From a virus, in the IMG/VR virus record IMGVR_UViG_3300047472_000309, positions 1 to 64,000 of that record: a stretch of 64,000 nt of DNA. One strand, given 5' to 3'. Shown here one piece after another: positions 3,132-44,404 of the stretch. Every line of letters begins with the position of its first letter. Position 1 is the first letter of the stretch. The position numbers and the translations under genes were made by a program. The notes under the pieces were generated by a model. That model ran no database searches. It saw nothing but the letters and a program-made list of their open reading frames with translations, and was not told the origin of the DNA.

Positions 3132-5042
3132 TTACCAGCGCGAGCTGAAGCCCGTGCGGCCCCAGCCAGCGCCTTGGTTCGACTGACCGCCGAAGCCTGC
3201 CGCGAACAGACCGGTTGCACCCGGCGCCATGAGCAGGCCGTTGGCGAACTGCGCCGTTGCACGCTCTTGACCCGCGACGTCGCCGAACGGGTATTGTGCA
3301 CGCAGGACGAGACCCGCATCCACGCAGCCCTTGGCCAGCGCTTCCATGAACGCACCGTCCAGCGTTGCACGACGTGCGAAACCCGTGAAGGTTGCATCGC
3401 CGACCAGACCCTGGATGATGTTCTTGCGACGCGCGAGACGCTGCGCGGGCGAGATTTGCAGATTGACGAACGTGTCGCTCCAGTCCTTGATGACCGTCGG
3501 GTCCTTCTCGCCGATCAGGTTCGCTACCGCGAGGTAGTCGATGTCGCGGATGTCGCGCTTGCGACCTTGCTGGTCGACGTACCAACCCAGGTGAATGCGG
3601 TTGTTGTTGTCGAACGCAACGCGGCCCGTGCCGTTCGTGTAGTGCTTCAGGAAGTTGCCGTTCGTCAGCGTCTGCGCTGCTTCGATGATGAACTCGTTGG
3701 CCTTCGGGCTGCCTTCAGCAGCAGCCGCGAACACCGAGTTCGACCAGGTCGACGGACCGCATTCCGGCACGTCGATCGAGAGCAGCAGGCCCGGACGCAC
3801 GAAAGCTTGCAGCAGCTTGTGCAGCGTGCCTTGTGCCGTGAACGCGTCCGACTTCGTGTCGATGCGCGCGCCGATGCCGTTCGCGTTGCCTTCCGGATTC
3901 GCTTCGATACCGATTGCACCGATGTCGTGCATGTCGATGCCTTGCGCGTAAGGACGCGGTGCGAAACCACGTGCCCAGGCGTTGCCGTCGCGCAGCGTGA
4001 GCGCCTGAACCAGCGCGAACAGCTGTGCCGGAACGGTCATCAGCTCGAGCGTTTCCAGGTGCGTCATCACGAAGTGCGTGATGTACAGCGGGTTGAACTG
4101 CTGTTGCTGCGCTTGACCCCACTGCGCGTACGGGTTCGCGGTCGGCGCGACCGGGTCCCACACGAGGTCGAGGAAGCCGCCGACTTGCGAGACCTTCGTC
4201 GCGCGTGCGTCTGCGTTGGCGCCCTGGCCGGTCGTGATTGCCGTGGCGATCAGGTCGATCATCACGTCGGTGCGGATCGGCTCGCCGACCGGGTCGACCA
4301 GTTGGTCGTGGTTGAACGCGACGCGCGCGGTCAGGTTCGAGTCGCGTGCTGCGCCAGCCAGGTTCAGGTCGCGGAAGTCCGTGCGCATGCGGTTCAGTTC
4401 GTGGTTCGCGGCAAACAGGGCGTTCGCGGCGAGCTGGTACACGAGCTGTTCGTCTGCGACGTCGAACGAACGCGGCACGACTTCGGCTTCAGCGTCGATC
4501 AGACGCGCGCCGTTGAAGGTACGGGCCACGGCATCGGCCACGACTTCGCGGAACTTGTCGTCCCACACGTCGCCGTCGACACGCTGGATTTCGACGTTCT
4601 GGCCGTTGATCTGGTCGTACTTCGGCGGGAACGGTTCGCCCGAGCCTGCGAGGATCAGCGTGTGGTACGCGACGCCCAGGTCCAGGTCGTTCTTGTCGAA
4701 CAGCGCCACGATGAGCGCCGAGCGCGCGATCGCCGGGTTGTTGTTCATGTCGAGCGGCAGCAGCTTGATCTCGAAAGCCGGGTTCGCCGACTTGTACGTT
4801 TCGATCAGTGCCTTCTCGAGCTTGACGAGCACTTCAGCGGCCGGGTTGCGACCCATCGGTGCGTTGCCCAGGCGGCCGAGCGAGCGGAAGCTGAAGCCCG
4901 CCGGTGCGGATTGTTGTTGCTGGTTCATGGTGCCTCGCGGTTGAGAGTTCTGGTTGTCCTTGGCCCGGCTGAAGCCTGCTGCCATTTGCGTTTCTGCCGG
5001 AGCTGCTGCTTGGCCTTCTTGGCCCGGTTGTTCGATTGCCAT
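3132..5042 (-). CDS. chmA: Chimallin, phage nucleus shell protein
   Basis: 636 residues, close to the roughly 630 of the known chimallin of Pseudomonas phage 201phi2-1. I recognise shared blocks from memory of that protein: KLLPLD near residue 85, AYHTLI, FRDLNLA, HDIGAIGIEAN, ALDVPECGP-like SIDVPECGPSTW, RDIRDIDYLAVANL and GEKDP, in the same order. Chimallin self-assembles into the proteinaceous shell that encloses replicating phage DNA and excludes host nucleases. The N-terminal 60 residues are Gln/Ala/Gly-rich and the C-terminus is a Gly-rich tail (GFGGQSNQGAGWGRTG), probably flexible linkers between protomers. ATG start with AAGGAATAGC upstream. An early promoter (5128-5156) lies 86 nt upstream, as expected for an early abundant protein. 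Confidence 0.94.
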   Translation of the reverse strand: MAIEQPGQEGQAAAPAETQMAAGFSRAKDNQNSQPRGTMNQQQQSAPAGFSFRSLGRLGNAPMGRNPAAEVLVKLEKALIETYKSANPAFEIKLLPLDMNNNPAIARSALIVALFDKNDLDLGVAYHTLILAGSGEPFPPKYDQINGQNVEIQRVDGDVWDDKFREVVADAVARTFNGARLIDAEAEVVPRSFDVADEQLVYQLAANALFAANHELNRMRTDFRDLNLAGAARDSNLTARVAFNHDQLVDPVGEPIRTDVMIDLIATAITTGQGANADARATKVSQVGGFLDLVWDPVAPTANPYAQWGQAQQQQFNPLYITHFVMTHLETLELMTVPAQLFALVQALTLRDGNAWARGFAPRPYAQGIDMHDIGAIGIEANPEGNANGIGARIDTKSDAFTAQGTLHKLLQAFVRPGLLLSIDVPECGPSTWSNSVFAAAAEGSPKANEFIIEAAQTLTNGNFLKHYTNGTGRVAFDNNNRIHLGWYVDQQGRKRDIRDIDYLAVANLIGEKDPTVIKDWSDTFVNLQISPAQRLARRKNIIQGLVGDATFTGFARRATLDGAFMEALAKGCVDAGLVLRAQYPFGDVAGQERATAQFANGLLMAPGATGLFAAGFGGQSNQGAGWGRTGFSSRW

Positions 5043-12326: not shown

Positions 12327-12384
12327 TTTGTTTTACTCCTTGTCGACCTACATGATCAAGGCGCCCAATAAAAACGAATCGACG

Positions 12385-12434
12385 GCATAAAAAGGAAAAA
12401 AGGGCGAGGAGCGGTTTCGGGCCGCCACCTCGCC
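12385..12434 (-). terminator. Strong intrinsic terminator before the polymerase gene
   Basis: Minus-strand stem GGCGAGG / CCTCGCC enclosing a second GC-rich hairpin (GGCGGCC), followed by CTTTTTTCCTTTTTATGCCGTCG. Confidence 0.85.
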
Positions 12435-12893
12435 TAAATACAGGTCGTTACAAGTACCGAAAAGGAAAACCAGTCACTGAACATGCCCGAGCGATTCGGA
12501 GCCACAGAGACTCTACTACCACTACCACTTCAACCAAAATCGAGGTAGACAGGGGCCAGCTTACTCTTAATCCACGCGATCGACCAACTTCCACAGGAGA
12601 CTCCTATATTCGCCAAAGAGCGCTTGCGGAGGCGCAGAGCAGCGATAGGAGTAGGATCGATGTACGAGGAAACGCCGGTGCCAGGGGAAACAAGGAGGAA
12701 ACCCCAGCAGCGTGAATAAGCCAGCCCCGCGTCTAGGCATACGGCGCGGTAGCCCGCGGGAGGGCTCGCGCGAGAGTCCTTACCGGCACCAGTCAGGAGG
12801 AGGCCTGATGTCGATGAGGGTACAGGCTTGCCGGGCCTTTCTCTTCAGAACATTACGGATGGGCGATATAAATTAACTAGGGTAAACCCTGGC
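12435..12893 (-). ncRNA. Structured non-coding region A (candidate large RNA)
   Basis: About 460 bases without a convincing gene between the 12894-13295 stop and a strong terminator. Several complementary segments suggest a folded RNA: 12600-12607 with 12645-12652 (8 bp), an inner 6-bp hairpin at 12620-12635, 12677-12682 with 12785-12790, 12684-12687 with 12702-12705, 12727-12731 with 12745-12749, and 12751-12755 with 12762-12766. The minus strand is preferred because the terminator lies at that end. I cannot name the family. Confidence 0.5.
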
Positions 12894-15563: not shown

Positions 15564-16373
15564 TTAATCTTCAAAATCGCGTCCGTGCTCCATCATCCAC
15601 GAGTAGATCCGATAGTCGATGGTCTTTTCCACCCGCACCGTCGTATTATCCACTTTCATGAAGTGCATGATCCAGCGATCTTGTCCCAAGAAGTCTGTCA
15701 ACTGATGTAGCATGTCGCTTAACTGCAGCGTGATGCTCTCACAGATCTCCTGAGAGGCGTAAAAAAGTTGCTTGTCCTGTTCCGTGATCCGCGAACGGCC
15801 CAGCTCATCAGTCGGTTCGTGCTCGAGCGCGATGATGTTGCCAGTCTCGCCCCAGGTGAATTTGGGATCAGTGGGATCTTTCGGATACTGGAATACCGAA
15901 TCGACCGTGATGCCGGAGCGCTGAAACTGCTCGAGCAGAAACGGCCGGATCACCGCATCAAAATTCAGCTTCTTGTGGCCACGACGAATGCGACCCTGAC
16001 TGGACCATTTTGCATGGTTGATCACCATGTGGTCAATCAGCTCGACGAGCAAGTTACGAGCACGCAGCGAATAGCGTGACTGCGGCTTCAGATACGGCAA
16101 GTGGACTTTGGGGACCACGAGATTGGCTTCCGCGTCGAACACCTCATCGCGCAGCGGCAATTCGAACGAGGTGATCGGAATCGGCACCGCCACACTCTTG
16201 ACTGCTTCACCTGCGTAGAAATACGGCTGCCCTGCGATCATCACCGGCTCACACTGAGTCGGCAGGTACAAGCCTTCCGGATTGGGCAACATGTAGGGAC
16301 CTGCGGCAGCTTCCACCGCGTCGACCCAGTCTCCCAGATCCAGCACCAGCGTTCCAGTGATTTTCAGTTCCAT
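15564..16373 (-). CDS. Larger cluster member (F)
   Basis: 269 residues from ATG 16373, overlapping the preceding gene by 10 bases. The N-terminal 110 residues are beta-rich (MELKITGTLVLDLGDW; PYFYAGEAVKSVAVPIPITS), followed by a helical region; near the end FLGQDRWIMHFMKVDNTT again shows a G-x-D element. It may be the cluster's ancestral, two-domain member. Unknown function; a virion-associated role is possible. Confidence 0.75.
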   Translation of the reverse strand: MELKITGTLVLDLGDWVDAVEAAAGPYMLPNPEGLYLPTQCEPVMIAGQPYFYAGEAVKSVAVPIPITSFELPLRDEVFDAEANLVVPKVHLPYLKPQSRYSLRARNLLVELIDHMVINHAKWSSQGRIRRGHKKLNFDAVIRPFLLEQFQRSGITVDSVFQYPKDPTDPKFTWGETGNIIALEHEPTDELGRSRITEQDKQLFYASQEICESITLQLSDMLHQLTDFLGQDRWIMHFMKVDNTTVRVEKTIDYRIYSWMMEHGRDFED

Positions 16374-16771
16374 TTTCTTTGGTAGTCGTAGTTCGTATTG
16401 GCAGGACGATTGTGGATGTAGTACCACAAGTACAGATCAATCCCGCGGATTTCTAAATCGATGAAGCAGTTATCCCCGTACAACTGCGGCACCTTGATGT
16501 ACTGGCCCGTGTAGTAATCCAGATCCAACTGTGAACGGATCTGGTCATGCAGTCGGGCAAAGCGCCAATCCCGCGGATCGTGGTTCACAGAGAACAAATG
16601 ATACACCTGCTCAATCTGTTCTTTCACGATCCATTCGATCAAGCGCTCTTCGCTTAACCCGGAGAAGACCAGTTGACTCGCAACGGCCCTCGTAGCGCCC
16701 TTTAAGACGCTCAGGAAGTCATGGATCTCCTGGATCAATAGCGCCCTAGGTTCGACGGTTAAGAGGTTCAT
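16364..16771 (-). CDS. First gene of the seven-member cluster (G)
   Basis: 135 residues, ATG with AAGGAG upstream. N-terminal helices (LLIQEIHDFLSVLKGATRAV; RLIEWIVKEQIEQVYHLF), then aromatic strands (EIRGIDLYLWYYIHN) and the tail NYDYQRKWN. Heads the leftward cluster that runs to 12894. Unknown function. Confidence 0.77.
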   Translation of the reverse strand: MNLLTVEPRALLIQEIHDFLSVLKGATRAVASQLVFSGLSEERLIEWIVKEQIEQVYHLFSVNHDPRDWRFARLHDQIRSQLDLDYYTGQYIKVPQLYGDNCFIDLEIRGIDLYLWYYIHNRPANTNYDYQRKWN

Positions 16772-16830
16772 GGCGGCTCCTTATACACAGTATCCAGCGG
16801 CTACGTTTGTTTTGACTATTTGTGTAACTG

Positions 16831-16890
16831 CGGCATAAAAAAATAATCAGTCCCTTTTGCACCCTCCTACTGGAAGGCATAAAAGGGACT
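16831..16890 (-). terminator. Strong terminator closing the RNA downstream of phuZ
   Basis: Perfect 10-bp stem AGTCCCTTTT / AAAAGGGACT, then GATTATTTTTTTATGCCGC on the minus strand. Confidence 0.85.
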
Positions 16891-17470
16891 CACCTCGTCC
16901 GATGCTCACCCAAACAGCGACCCGTAAAACGGACTGTGGGATTGTTGCGATCGGAACTGAGGTGGTCTGGACATCTCAAGATGCGAGCCAAGAGTTAGGC
17001 CCTATCGCTCATCCTTACCACGACCCATGGGTCTAGTAAACGATTGCCTCGGGTACTCCCTTGAAAACTGTCGCACTTATTGCCTCCTGCTCACCGGGGG
17101 TGGCAGGCCATTACTCACGGAATGTAAAAGACTGCCTAGCCCCTAAATGCACCCCCTGCGCCTGATGCGCGGTTCGGCTGGTATGGGACTAAGAGTCTGC
17201 GCATGGCCAAATCATCGGTCCGAATCAACGGGCCAAGCGCATCGCCTCAATGGCTGAAGGTACTACGAGCACCCTTAGCTCGCGTTGCCTTCCCCAGCTG
17301 GGGACGTCGCGCATGATGTCTATTCACCCGAGCTTGCGCCAGCCGAGGTGAGGACCGATGAACTTTGCGATTGGCGGCCGCTTGGAGGGAAGGGAACCAT
17401 GAAAAATCATGGTAGAGCCACTTCATCTCCCGCAGCCACCATCGAGCCAGGTTTCTCACATGGCTAAACA
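16891..17470 (-). ncRNA. Large structured non-coding RNA candidate downstream of phuZ
   Basis: About 620 bases without a gene between the phuZ stop and a strong terminator. Complementary segments: 17352-17361 with 17212-17221 (10 bp perfect), 17231-17240 with 17199-17208 (9 of 10), which together cross as a pseudoknot; hairpins 17396-17413 (7 bp), 17324-17351 (10 of 11), 17291-17304, 17022-17033 and 16909-16940; nested 17096-17101/17151-17156 and 17102-17106/17132-17136. Minus strand chosen because the terminator is at that end. Resembles in size the ornate phage RNAs ROOL and GOLLD, but I cannot assign it. Confidence 0.65.
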
Positions 17471-17514
17471 TCGGTTCTTATTGCTTTCCTTATCGTGTTT
17501 GCTGCGTTCTTGTT

Positions 17515-18519
17515 TTAGAGGATCAGCCCCGTTTCATCCGCACGGTCGCCTGCGCCCAAAATGGACTTGTGCGCGACGCGCGATTGCTGTTCCTCGCTCA
17601 GGTGCGTGAGCACCCGTTGCACGTTGTCCACGGCTTCGTGGATCACCCGGTCGCCCGTGATGTAATGCACCGGCGATTCCTTGGCGATGTTCTCGGGCAT
17701 GTCAGCCGGGAACAGACCCAGAAAGCGCACTTCCGGCATGAACGGCAGCGTTGCATCGGCACCCGCTTTCGCCAGCGTCGCGACGCTGATGACGTTGCCC
17801 ACGTGAGCGTGCGATTCGCCGTTCTTGACGATGTGCAATCCAGCGAGCATCGGCTGCTTGAAGGTGGTGACCTTGTCGAAGCGCAACCAGTTGTAGAGGT
17901 CACGCGTGTCGAGCTCGGTGTTCTCGCGGCTAAAGAGCGCAGCGAGGCCGACCACGACGGTTTCGATTTCAGCGTCCACCGCCGCACGCGGCGTGTCTTG
18001 CGTGTTCTGCAAATACGCGATGACGATCGGTGCACCCGCGGCCTTGGCGATGGCTTCGTAGGACTTGATCGTGTTGAGCGTGTTCTCCGCGTACAGACGC
18101 GTCGACGCATCACCCACCATGACCACAACCACCGGCACATCACGTGCGAGCAGCTCTTGCGTGAGGATCGGGCCGATCACCGAACCCGAACCGCCCGAGG
18201 CCGAATGCATCACCAGCGCCAGGTTGCCCGGCTTGTACGTGTGCAAGATTTCCTTGGCACGTTCTTTCACGACGGCAGCGTGTTCGCGACGCACTTGTCC
18301 AGCGCCATCGAGGCCCTGGAAGTGGTACACCGCATCGGCTGCGATGTCGGCGCTGAGTATGTTGGACTTGGAGGTGTCGATATAAACCGGATCGACGATC
18401 GCCATGCCTGCCTGACTCTTGCCGCGGTACTTCTCAAAGCGCGTCGCAATGTTCGTGCCAGCTCCGCCCGCTGCGTAGATGCTGATACGACCTTTGACTT
18501 TCTCGATGATTTCGGACAT
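17515..18519 (-). CDS. phuZ: PhuZ, phage tubulin/FtsZ-like GTPase
   Basis: 334 residues, the size of known PhuZ proteins. The tubulin signature loop is SASGGSGSVIGP (about residues 107-118), preceded by an N-terminal GAGGAGTN-like nucleotide loop (AAGGAGTNIATRFEKY, about residue 17) and followed by the strand/helix order of the GTPase domain (VPVVVVMVGDAST; APIVIAYLQNTQDT). The C-terminal end is acidic (GAGDRADETGLIL), as in PhuZ where the tail drives filament assembly. PhuZ filaments form a spindle that centres the phage nucleus and carries capsids. ATG with AGGAAAG upstream. An inverted repeat at 18547-18575 lies in its leader. A long non-coding region follows the gene. Confidence 0.93.
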   Translation of the reverse strand: MSEIIEKVKGRISIYAAGGAGTNIATRFEKYRGKSQAGMAIVDPVYIDTSKSNILSADIAADAVYHFQGLDGAGQVRREHAAVVKERAKEILHTYKPGNLALVMHSASGGSGSVIGPILTQELLARDVPVVVVMVGDASTRLYAENTLNTIKSYEAIAKAAGAPIVIAYLQNTQDTPRAAVDAEIETVVVGLAALFSRENTELDTRDLYNWLRFDKVTTFKQPMLAGLHIVKNGESHAHVGNVISVATLAKAGADATLPFMPEVRFLGLFPADMPENIAKESPVHYITGDRVIHEAVDNVQRVLTHLSEEQQSRVAHKSILGAGDRADETGLIL

Positions 18520-24156: not shown

Positions 24157-24185
24157 AGAATATAGGTTTGAATATTTCTAGCATC
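24157..24185 (-). promoter_or_regulatory. Early promoter
   Basis: Minus strand GATGCTAGAAATATTCAAACC then TATATTCT at the conserved 29-nt length. Confidence 0.62.
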
Positions 24186-24222
24186 CACGGATCGACGGCA
24201 TAAACGCCAGGCTCTCTGCCCG

Positions 24223-24798
24223 GCGAGGAAGATCACTTTGTAATTAAATATTCTATTCTTACAGAGTATGACTCCAGGGAGTATTCCTTTCTAGGGAATA
24301 ATAAAGAGAGGGGCTCCGCCCCTCTCTACGCTTAATTCTCTTCCTCCGCTTCGCTCCGCGTCGCCTCCGCTCCTTGACACATATCTAAGTTCCTACACAG
24401 TATTTTTTTACTTTATGCTTATAAATCAAGTACTTAGCTTCTAAACCCGATATTAACATATCGGGAGAGGGGCTTAGTCCCCCTCTCCCTTTTTTAAAAA
24501 GTTTAGACCGGGGTTTGTCAACCTAGAGAGTGAGCGCGTAGCGCTAGGGAAAGGAACAAAGGCACGAGCGCAGCGACAGAGATGTTTGGATAGGTATTGG
24601 ATGGTATTGTTGATGAATGACACCGCATGGTCGAAAACCCGCCCAGCGTTGCAAACCATTCTTAGGGGCGCGGCGGGCGGCGGCTTTTTATCGTGTTCCC
24701 CTATCTTGTTATGCACCGCGCGCAGCAGGATCTTTTATCCTGTAGATAGCAATACTGTGAATCTCCAATTCCGTTCCTACTCCCTAAGGAAAGAACCC
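24223..24798. other. Gene-free divergence region
   Basis: Some 575 bases between leftward early genes and the rightward late block. Comparatively AT-rich at 24240-24300 and 24390-24450. I see no convincing gene. It holds three hairpins: 24305-24327 (AGAGAGGGGC / GCCCCTCTCT), 24445-24464 (CCCGATAT / ATATCGGG) and 24463-24489 followed by TTTTTT on the plus strand. The last is a good rightward terminator although no rightward gene precedes it, so a short untranslated plus-strand RNA between about 24330 and 24490 is possible. Confidence 0.5.
24463..24495 (+). terminator. Rightward terminator without an upstream gene
   Basis: GGGAGAGGGG / CCCCCTCTCCC stem with TTTTTT directly after. Confidence 0.6.
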
Positions 24799-25903: not shown

Positions 25904-25932
25904 GGCGGGGCTTCGGCCCCGCCTTTATGCCG
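25904..25932 (+). terminator. Terminator with TTTATGCCG
   Basis: Stem GGCGGGG / CCCCGCC with CTTCGG loop followed by TTTATGCCG. Confidence 0.8.
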
Positions 25933-25978
25933 TTGATCCTAATTCTGTGTATCGTTGCCCTATCTGAGAGGATGCTAA

Positions 25979-44362: not shown

Positions 44363-44371
44363 ATGCGGATC

Positions 44372-44404
44372 AACGGCATAAGCCCCAGGGTTTCCCCTGG
44401 GGCT
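44372..44404 (-). terminator. Terminator with TTATGCCG
   Basis: Stem AGCCCCAGGG / CCCTGGGGCT followed on the minus strand by TATGCCGTTGATCC. Confidence 0.78.

Follow-up and report, generated by a model that had tools for sequence, protein, structure and literature searches.

The window analysed here, a whole stretch of 64,000 nucleotides from a virus record of 310,654 bases, carries on its minus strand the phage tubulin gene phuZ, followed by a conserved small open reading frame (ORF74), a structured RNA and a gene of 135 amino acids, whose positions are summarized in Table 1. A homologue of chimallin, the nuclear shell protein, is encoded at 3219-4874 on the minus strand (29% identity to PhiPA3 gp053, E 2e-41). 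Since the window encodes both PhuZ and a homologue of the shell protein, this phage is very probably a nucleus-forming one related to phiKZ. Burkholderia phage FLC9 is the nearest isolated relative that we found, and its record annotates neither ORF74 nor the RNA.

Table 1. Features at the phuZ locus (positions in the window) and what was seen of them in the relatives
Feature	Position	Strand	Remarks
phuZ (phage tubulin)	17515-18519	minus	phrog_4733, E 2e-82
ORF74, unannotated conserved small ORF	17250-17471	minus	74 aa; stop codon 17247-17249
ORF74, codons 1-36	17364-17471	minus	apparent protein-type selection
ORF74, codons 37-74	17250-17363	minus	apparent RNA-type selection (nucleotides rather than amino acids conserved)
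Conserved structured RNA (core, 3' domains and terminator)	16846-17364	minus	72-94% identity in relatives; no Rfam match
Pseudoknot strand A (UCAUCGGUCC)	17352-17361	minus	invariant in all sequences though within coding sequence
Hairpin P3, directly after strand A	17324-17351	minus	both-side changes in 7 of 10 pairs
CCCC/GGGG hairpin and P4 (outer AAGG/CCUU, inner GCGAGC/GCUCGU)	17257-17303	minus	
Helix B/B', encloses A'	17198-17241	minus	10 pairs, 100% paired
Pseudoknot strand A' (GGACCGAUGA), in loop of helix B	17212-17221	minus	invariant
Helix P7 and inner hairpin	17130-17197	minus	17185-17197 with 17130-17143
Hairpin P9	17086-17107	minus	9 pairs; outer C-G to A-U in two sequences
Distal domain	16970-17084	minus	long closing helix and fast-evolving hairpin (loop 17022-17033)
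Helix P12, closes last internal domain	16891-16967	minus	6 pairs, 3 with both-side changes
Intrinsic terminator and U tract	16835-16890	minus	17-pair stem, 100% paired; one double change, U-A to A-U
TATG of the recurrent hairpin-TTTATGCCG(T/C)GAT module	16834-16837	minus	putative late promoter of the downstream operon
135-aa gene, downstream of the RNA	16364-16771	minus	neighbour in all eight carriers

An earlier note on this DNA had described the region after phuZ as lacking a gene, which holds outside ORF74 but not for the 5' third, where ORF74 is open in all 8 sequences (74-81 aa). The two halves of this ORF evolve differently. For codons 1-36, pN/pS is 0.17-0.38 in nine of ten pairs and 0.76 in the tenth, the variable sites number 13, 9 and 27 at the first, second and third codon positions, and one 3-nt indel is in frame. 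For codons 37-74, pS is 0.11-0.39 compared with about 0.54 for phuZ (more distant lineages), pN/pS spreads over 0.2-1.3 (mostly 0.4-1.3), and the variable sites are flat over the codon positions (9, 14 and 12). The regime switches at strand A, where the RNA structure starts, and therefore the first half appears to be selected as protein, the second half as RNA at the level of nucleotides.

ORF74 matched no family in Pfam or PHROGs, and a tblastn search in phages and plasmids gave only FLC9 above noise; one weak match was set aside, as we read it as lying across an unrelated gene. The AlphaFold model is helical with low confidence (mean pLDDT 61), and a well-spaced Shine-Dalgarno sequence is absent at the start. 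A possible further ORF of 22 codons after ORF74 was rejected because of frame-breaking indels in two of the related contigs (L018 and L023).

The structured RNA is about 520 nt long and its 5' part overlaps the end of ORF74. The strong terminator that had been noticed at the end of the region is real, with -25.5 kcal/mol for the stem alone, and because it sits at the low-coordinate end, the RNA is placed on the minus strand. The helices point to the same strand, since G-U cells far exceed A-C cells in all three segments (22:1, 26:3 and 19:0). For the region in the window, folding energy has a z score of -4.8 when the minus strand is folded and -4.6 for the plus strand, while the conserved RNA gives -4.5 to -7.0 in five lineages, and still -2.6 to -4.6 with the terminator removed. 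It turned out that the region indeed contains more long complementary segments than its dinucleotide shuffles, namely ten perfect 8-mers (3.5 expected; 3 of 200 shuffles), five 9-mers (0.95 expected; 4 of 200) and two 10-mers (0.26 expected; at least two in 13 of 200). The count of 10-bp pairs is by itself only moderately unusual.

For the covariation counts, structures were laid out from the window sequence and then scored on the alignment rows of the relatives. On seven distinct rows from about five lineages, for which shuffle counts are not to be read as probabilities since the sequences are related, 99.4% of the cells in the core are paired and 12 pairs carry changes on both sides (0 of 500 shuffles), together with 7 pairs in the P4-P7 segment (0 of 500) and 4 pairs in the 3' domain including the terminator (8 of 500). 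The covariation score was reached by 0 of 500 shuffles in each of the three segments, the 3' domain included, and lay near zero in the slid controls; when partners were slid in the core, the pairs changed on both sides dropped to 0-1. RNAalifold predicted 148 pairs, 32 of them with both-side changes. Compensatory changes in the relatives thus go beyond shuffles and slid controls, and they lend strong support to the large structured RNA that the earlier note had claimed. The segment from 17364 to 16846 is, on this comparative evidence, strongly supported as an evolutionarily conserved structured RNA with an intrinsic terminator.

Among the single helices, P7 is the most telling one, as read from the alignments: much of its 3' strand differs in L015 and L017, where pairing is restored with the bulge moved, and L018 has lost bases from both strands yet keeps a complete helix. 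The inner helix of P4 is 100% paired with both-side changes in 4 of 6 pairs, and its outer pairs are invariant. In helix B/B', one pair is changed on both sides and three on one side. The distal domain has 10 pairs with both-side changes in A9, and when the distal segments were folded independently for each lineage, they gave a long hairpin of equal or nearly equal shape from almost no shared sequence. The four-base loop of this distal hairpin, at the same place in the window, L015, L017, L023 and FLC9, is palindromic yet different (CAUG, CGCG, UGCA), and reads UACG in L012. The palindromic loop is a possible site of kissing-loop dimerization.

The pseudoknot had been proposed from two pairings, both of which are present in the letters: strands A and A' form a perfect 10-bp pair, and 17231-17240 pairs with 17199-17208 in 9 of 10 positions, with one T-T mismatch, in an order of helices that would make a pseudoknot. 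All ten pairs of A-A' are invariant in the 7 rows, so that covariation cannot address this pairing, and the duplex reaches -19.2 kcal/mol. The pseudoknot is plausible: its strands are compatible with pairing, and what supports it is the complementarity and a conservation beyond coding need. Two other segments could pair with strand A as well, though more weakly: the terminator's 3' arm, invariant, at -13.4 kcal/mol, and the start region of ORF74, at -11.2 kcal/mol.

The RNA is found in seven other contigs or phages, with one copy per record and always in the slot between phuZ and the 135-aa gene, and the pairwise identity among the eight carriers is 68-99%. The carriers in IMG/VR share 94% (L015), 89% (L017, L018 and L019), 78-81% (L023) and 72-74% (L012) identity, and one further IMG/VR contig is identical to the window. 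L023 has the look of a mosaic: its distal domain is close to the window and the remainder to FLC9, and it is likely a recombinant in that domain. A distant DNA search returned one phage record, FLC9, with 99% of the query matched at 72.7% identity. By blastn the RNA was found in this phage clade only, and when 80 phuZ loci and 23 phage records were searched with a profile and with a CM, no relatives outside this clade appeared. Scanning 84,980 bacterial and archaeal genomes for exact 18-mers yielded 12 matches, about what chance would give at this length, none of which looked like this RNA by profile. The association with a tubulin gene, which the earlier note had found new, is thus positional and constant in all eight carriers, but does not extend to the other phages with phuZ that were searched.

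Spacing between phuZ and the 135-aa gene ranges in the next clade from less than 100 to nearly 2,900 bases, and therefore this slot is one that takes up different cargo. In sister phages (L057-L067, L089 and others), different genes or almost nothing stand in the slot after phuZ. The gap between phuZ and PHIKZ040 in phiKZ is 54 bases. The "p40" 5'-UTR ncRNA of phiKZ was considered as a parallel and rejected, as it could not be placed beside phuZ across this gap and the p-numbered tags in the phiKZ record name other small genes.

TTTATGCCG comes after the terminator hairpin, and a module made up of a hairpin and TTATGCCG(T/C)GAT occurs at 12 sites in the window (up to 2 mismatches; 2.05 expected), for example at 12378-12390, 24191-24203, 25925-25937 and 44369-44381, and probably serves this phage group as terminator and late promoter in one. 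The late promoter of phiKZ is TATG, with transcription starting at its G (PMC4666361). The downstream operon would accordingly have a late promoter of its own. On the minus strand from 18559, just upstream of phuZ, to the terminator hairpin there is no TATG, the promoters of this phage itself being unmapped, and a terminator-like site was not found between phuZ and the RNA; for these reasons the simplest view is that the RNA forms the end of the phuZ transcript. It may also have a separate promoter.

Besides the phuZ RNA, the window contains a second large stretch, at 12387-12893 on the minus strand, that is conserved but holds no conserved ORF; it shares 68-70% identity with FLC9, L141 and L142 and has both-side changes in 28 of 151 predicted pairs (5 sequences). 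It closes with a strongly covarying terminator followed by TTTTTATGCCG, the same ending as that of the phuZ RNA, had no match in Rfam and is unannotated in FLC9. Taken by itself, the window sequence gives an unremarkable folding energy for it (z -1.6), so the support for it is comparative, and on that basis we regard it as a second large conserved structured RNA of the same character. In another gene-poor stretch (24185-24585), the segment 24240-24412 is about 80% identical to FLC9 over 173 bases.

The RNA belongs to no catalogued RNA family. Rfam at gathering score gave no match for the window and the relatives, including ROOL, GOLLD, group I and II introns and RNase P, and a permissive search (up to E=10) of 16700-17700 listed only chance matches, with ROOL and GOLLD not among them. 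We also compared the helix order by hand with group I, RNase P and HDV-like RNAs and found no fit. For instance, there is no hairpin between A' and B', where the P8 hairpin of a group I intron would stand. ROOL and GOLLD usually lie near tRNA genes (PMC12286853), and ARAGORN found no tRNA genes in the 64-kb window. The earlier note had been reminded of ROOL and GOLLD by size and ornateness; kinship with them is not borne out, and membership is rejected on the absence of a covariance-model match.

We favour, with belief and doubt in about equal measure, a dual-function transcript, which would encode PhuZ and ORF74 and then, overlapping the latter, run into the folded RNA of about 520 nt that ends in the terminator. 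This reading is built on the conserved helices with compensatory changes, the switch of regime in ORF74 and the fixed position. Transcription would place the RNA at the 3' end of the phuZ mRNA, and this folded part, either stable or processed, would act as a noncoding RNA during infection, presumably in trans. Protein partners are probable because many unpaired bases are invariant. Strand A could pair with A' in the pseudoknot or, more weakly, with the start codon of ORF74, and folding could in this way switch the translation of ORF74 on or off. A search of the phage genome for antisense targets gave short matches only, which the relatives do not share.

A serious rival, although we think it unlikely, is a cis-acting leader whose terminator/antiterminator switch controls read-through into the 135-aa gene and the later genes. 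In its favour, 64 bases separate the terminator from the next gene, there is a leader-like ORF, and strand A is also complementary to the terminator 3' arm; however, the stem alone reaches -25.5 kcal/mol, and the putative late promoter after it means that the operon need not depend on read-through. Ribosome-coupled attenuation is further disfavoured in a phage with a chimallin homologue, as transcription and translation are uncoupled in nucleus-forming phages (PMC12908238). Promoter and uncoupling together weaken this rival. Somewhat less probable again is an elaborate 3' UTR and nothing else, which keeps 3' exonucleases off the phuZ mRNA and determines the half-life of this mRNA without any function in trans. 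The 3'-terminal place in the likely phuZ transcript and the high stability agree with this, as does the second, unrelated large RNA that also ends an operon, but long invariant unpaired stretches and a pseudoknotted core exceed what stability needs, and other phuZ phages manage with short spacers, such as the 54 bases of phiKZ.

An ornate RNA that assembles into a homo-oligomer like ROOL or GOLLD is possible as a way of working, though we consider it improbable. Its size and phage location are similar, and the distal loop changes yet stays palindromic, as a kissing loop would; against it stand the UACG loop of L012, the lack of an Rfam match to either family and the fact that the window has none of the tRNA genes beside which such RNAs usually lie (PMC12286853). 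That the conservation and the apparent structure come from protein coding only is scarcely credible. ORF74 is conserved, but third positions in its second half are as constrained as the others, and for 17249-16846, outside ORF74, this reading is refuted by frame-breaking indels and compensatory changes in the relatives.

Going beyond the dual-function transcript, we suggest, with more doubt than confidence, that the RNA may represent a new class: a large pseudoknotted phage RNA, both coding and structural in its 5' third, that forms the end of the tubulin mRNA of nucleus-forming phages. It might serve as an RNA-protein particle or an mRNA-localisation element, with an RNA switch on the start codon of ORF74, and the same genomes would carry at least one further such RNA. 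Large structured phage RNAs are few and mostly unexplained, and the phuZ RNA has good comparative support without an Rfam family. FLC9 is an isolated phage carrying it, which allows testing, and the annotation of FLC9 is corrected here by the two missing features. The overlap of coding and structure is unusual. Besides, transcription in these phages takes place within a nucleus walled by protein, so that a structured tail on a tubulin mRNA touches on how jumbo phages stabilise and export their mRNAs and on their RNA-protein particles.

Compared with known systems, the phuZ RNA resembles ROOL and GOLLD as a large, highly structured and pseudoknotted phage-encoded RNA with no assigned function, whereas it has no sequence or structure match to them in Rfam, lies away from tRNA genes, overlaps a protein ORF and is confined to one narrow phage clade. 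A precedent is offered by a northern-confirmed RNA of phiKZ, which ends in a putative terminator and has been ascribed by its authors to processing of an mRNA 3' UTR (PMC8545117). The PHIKZ298 ncRNA of phiKZ, known from Grad-seq, is similar in that its proposed origin is the 3' end of an mRNA of a jumbo phage, with the terminator of that mRNA as its proposed end, but it is about 100 nt long with two stem-loops, has no ORF and lies at a different locus, compared with about 520 nt, a pseudoknot and an ORF here. With leader-peptide attenuators the phuZ RNA shares a small ORF, alternative pairings and a terminator ahead of an operon, while it is much larger, has a putative promoter after the terminator and belongs to a host biology in which transcription is uncoupled from translation. 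Bacterial dual-function RNAs such as SgrS/SgrT and RNAIII combine a small ORF and a conserved structured RNA on one transcript. The phuZ RNA differs from these in being phage-borne, with a much larger structured part and an ORF that overlaps a pseudoknot strand.
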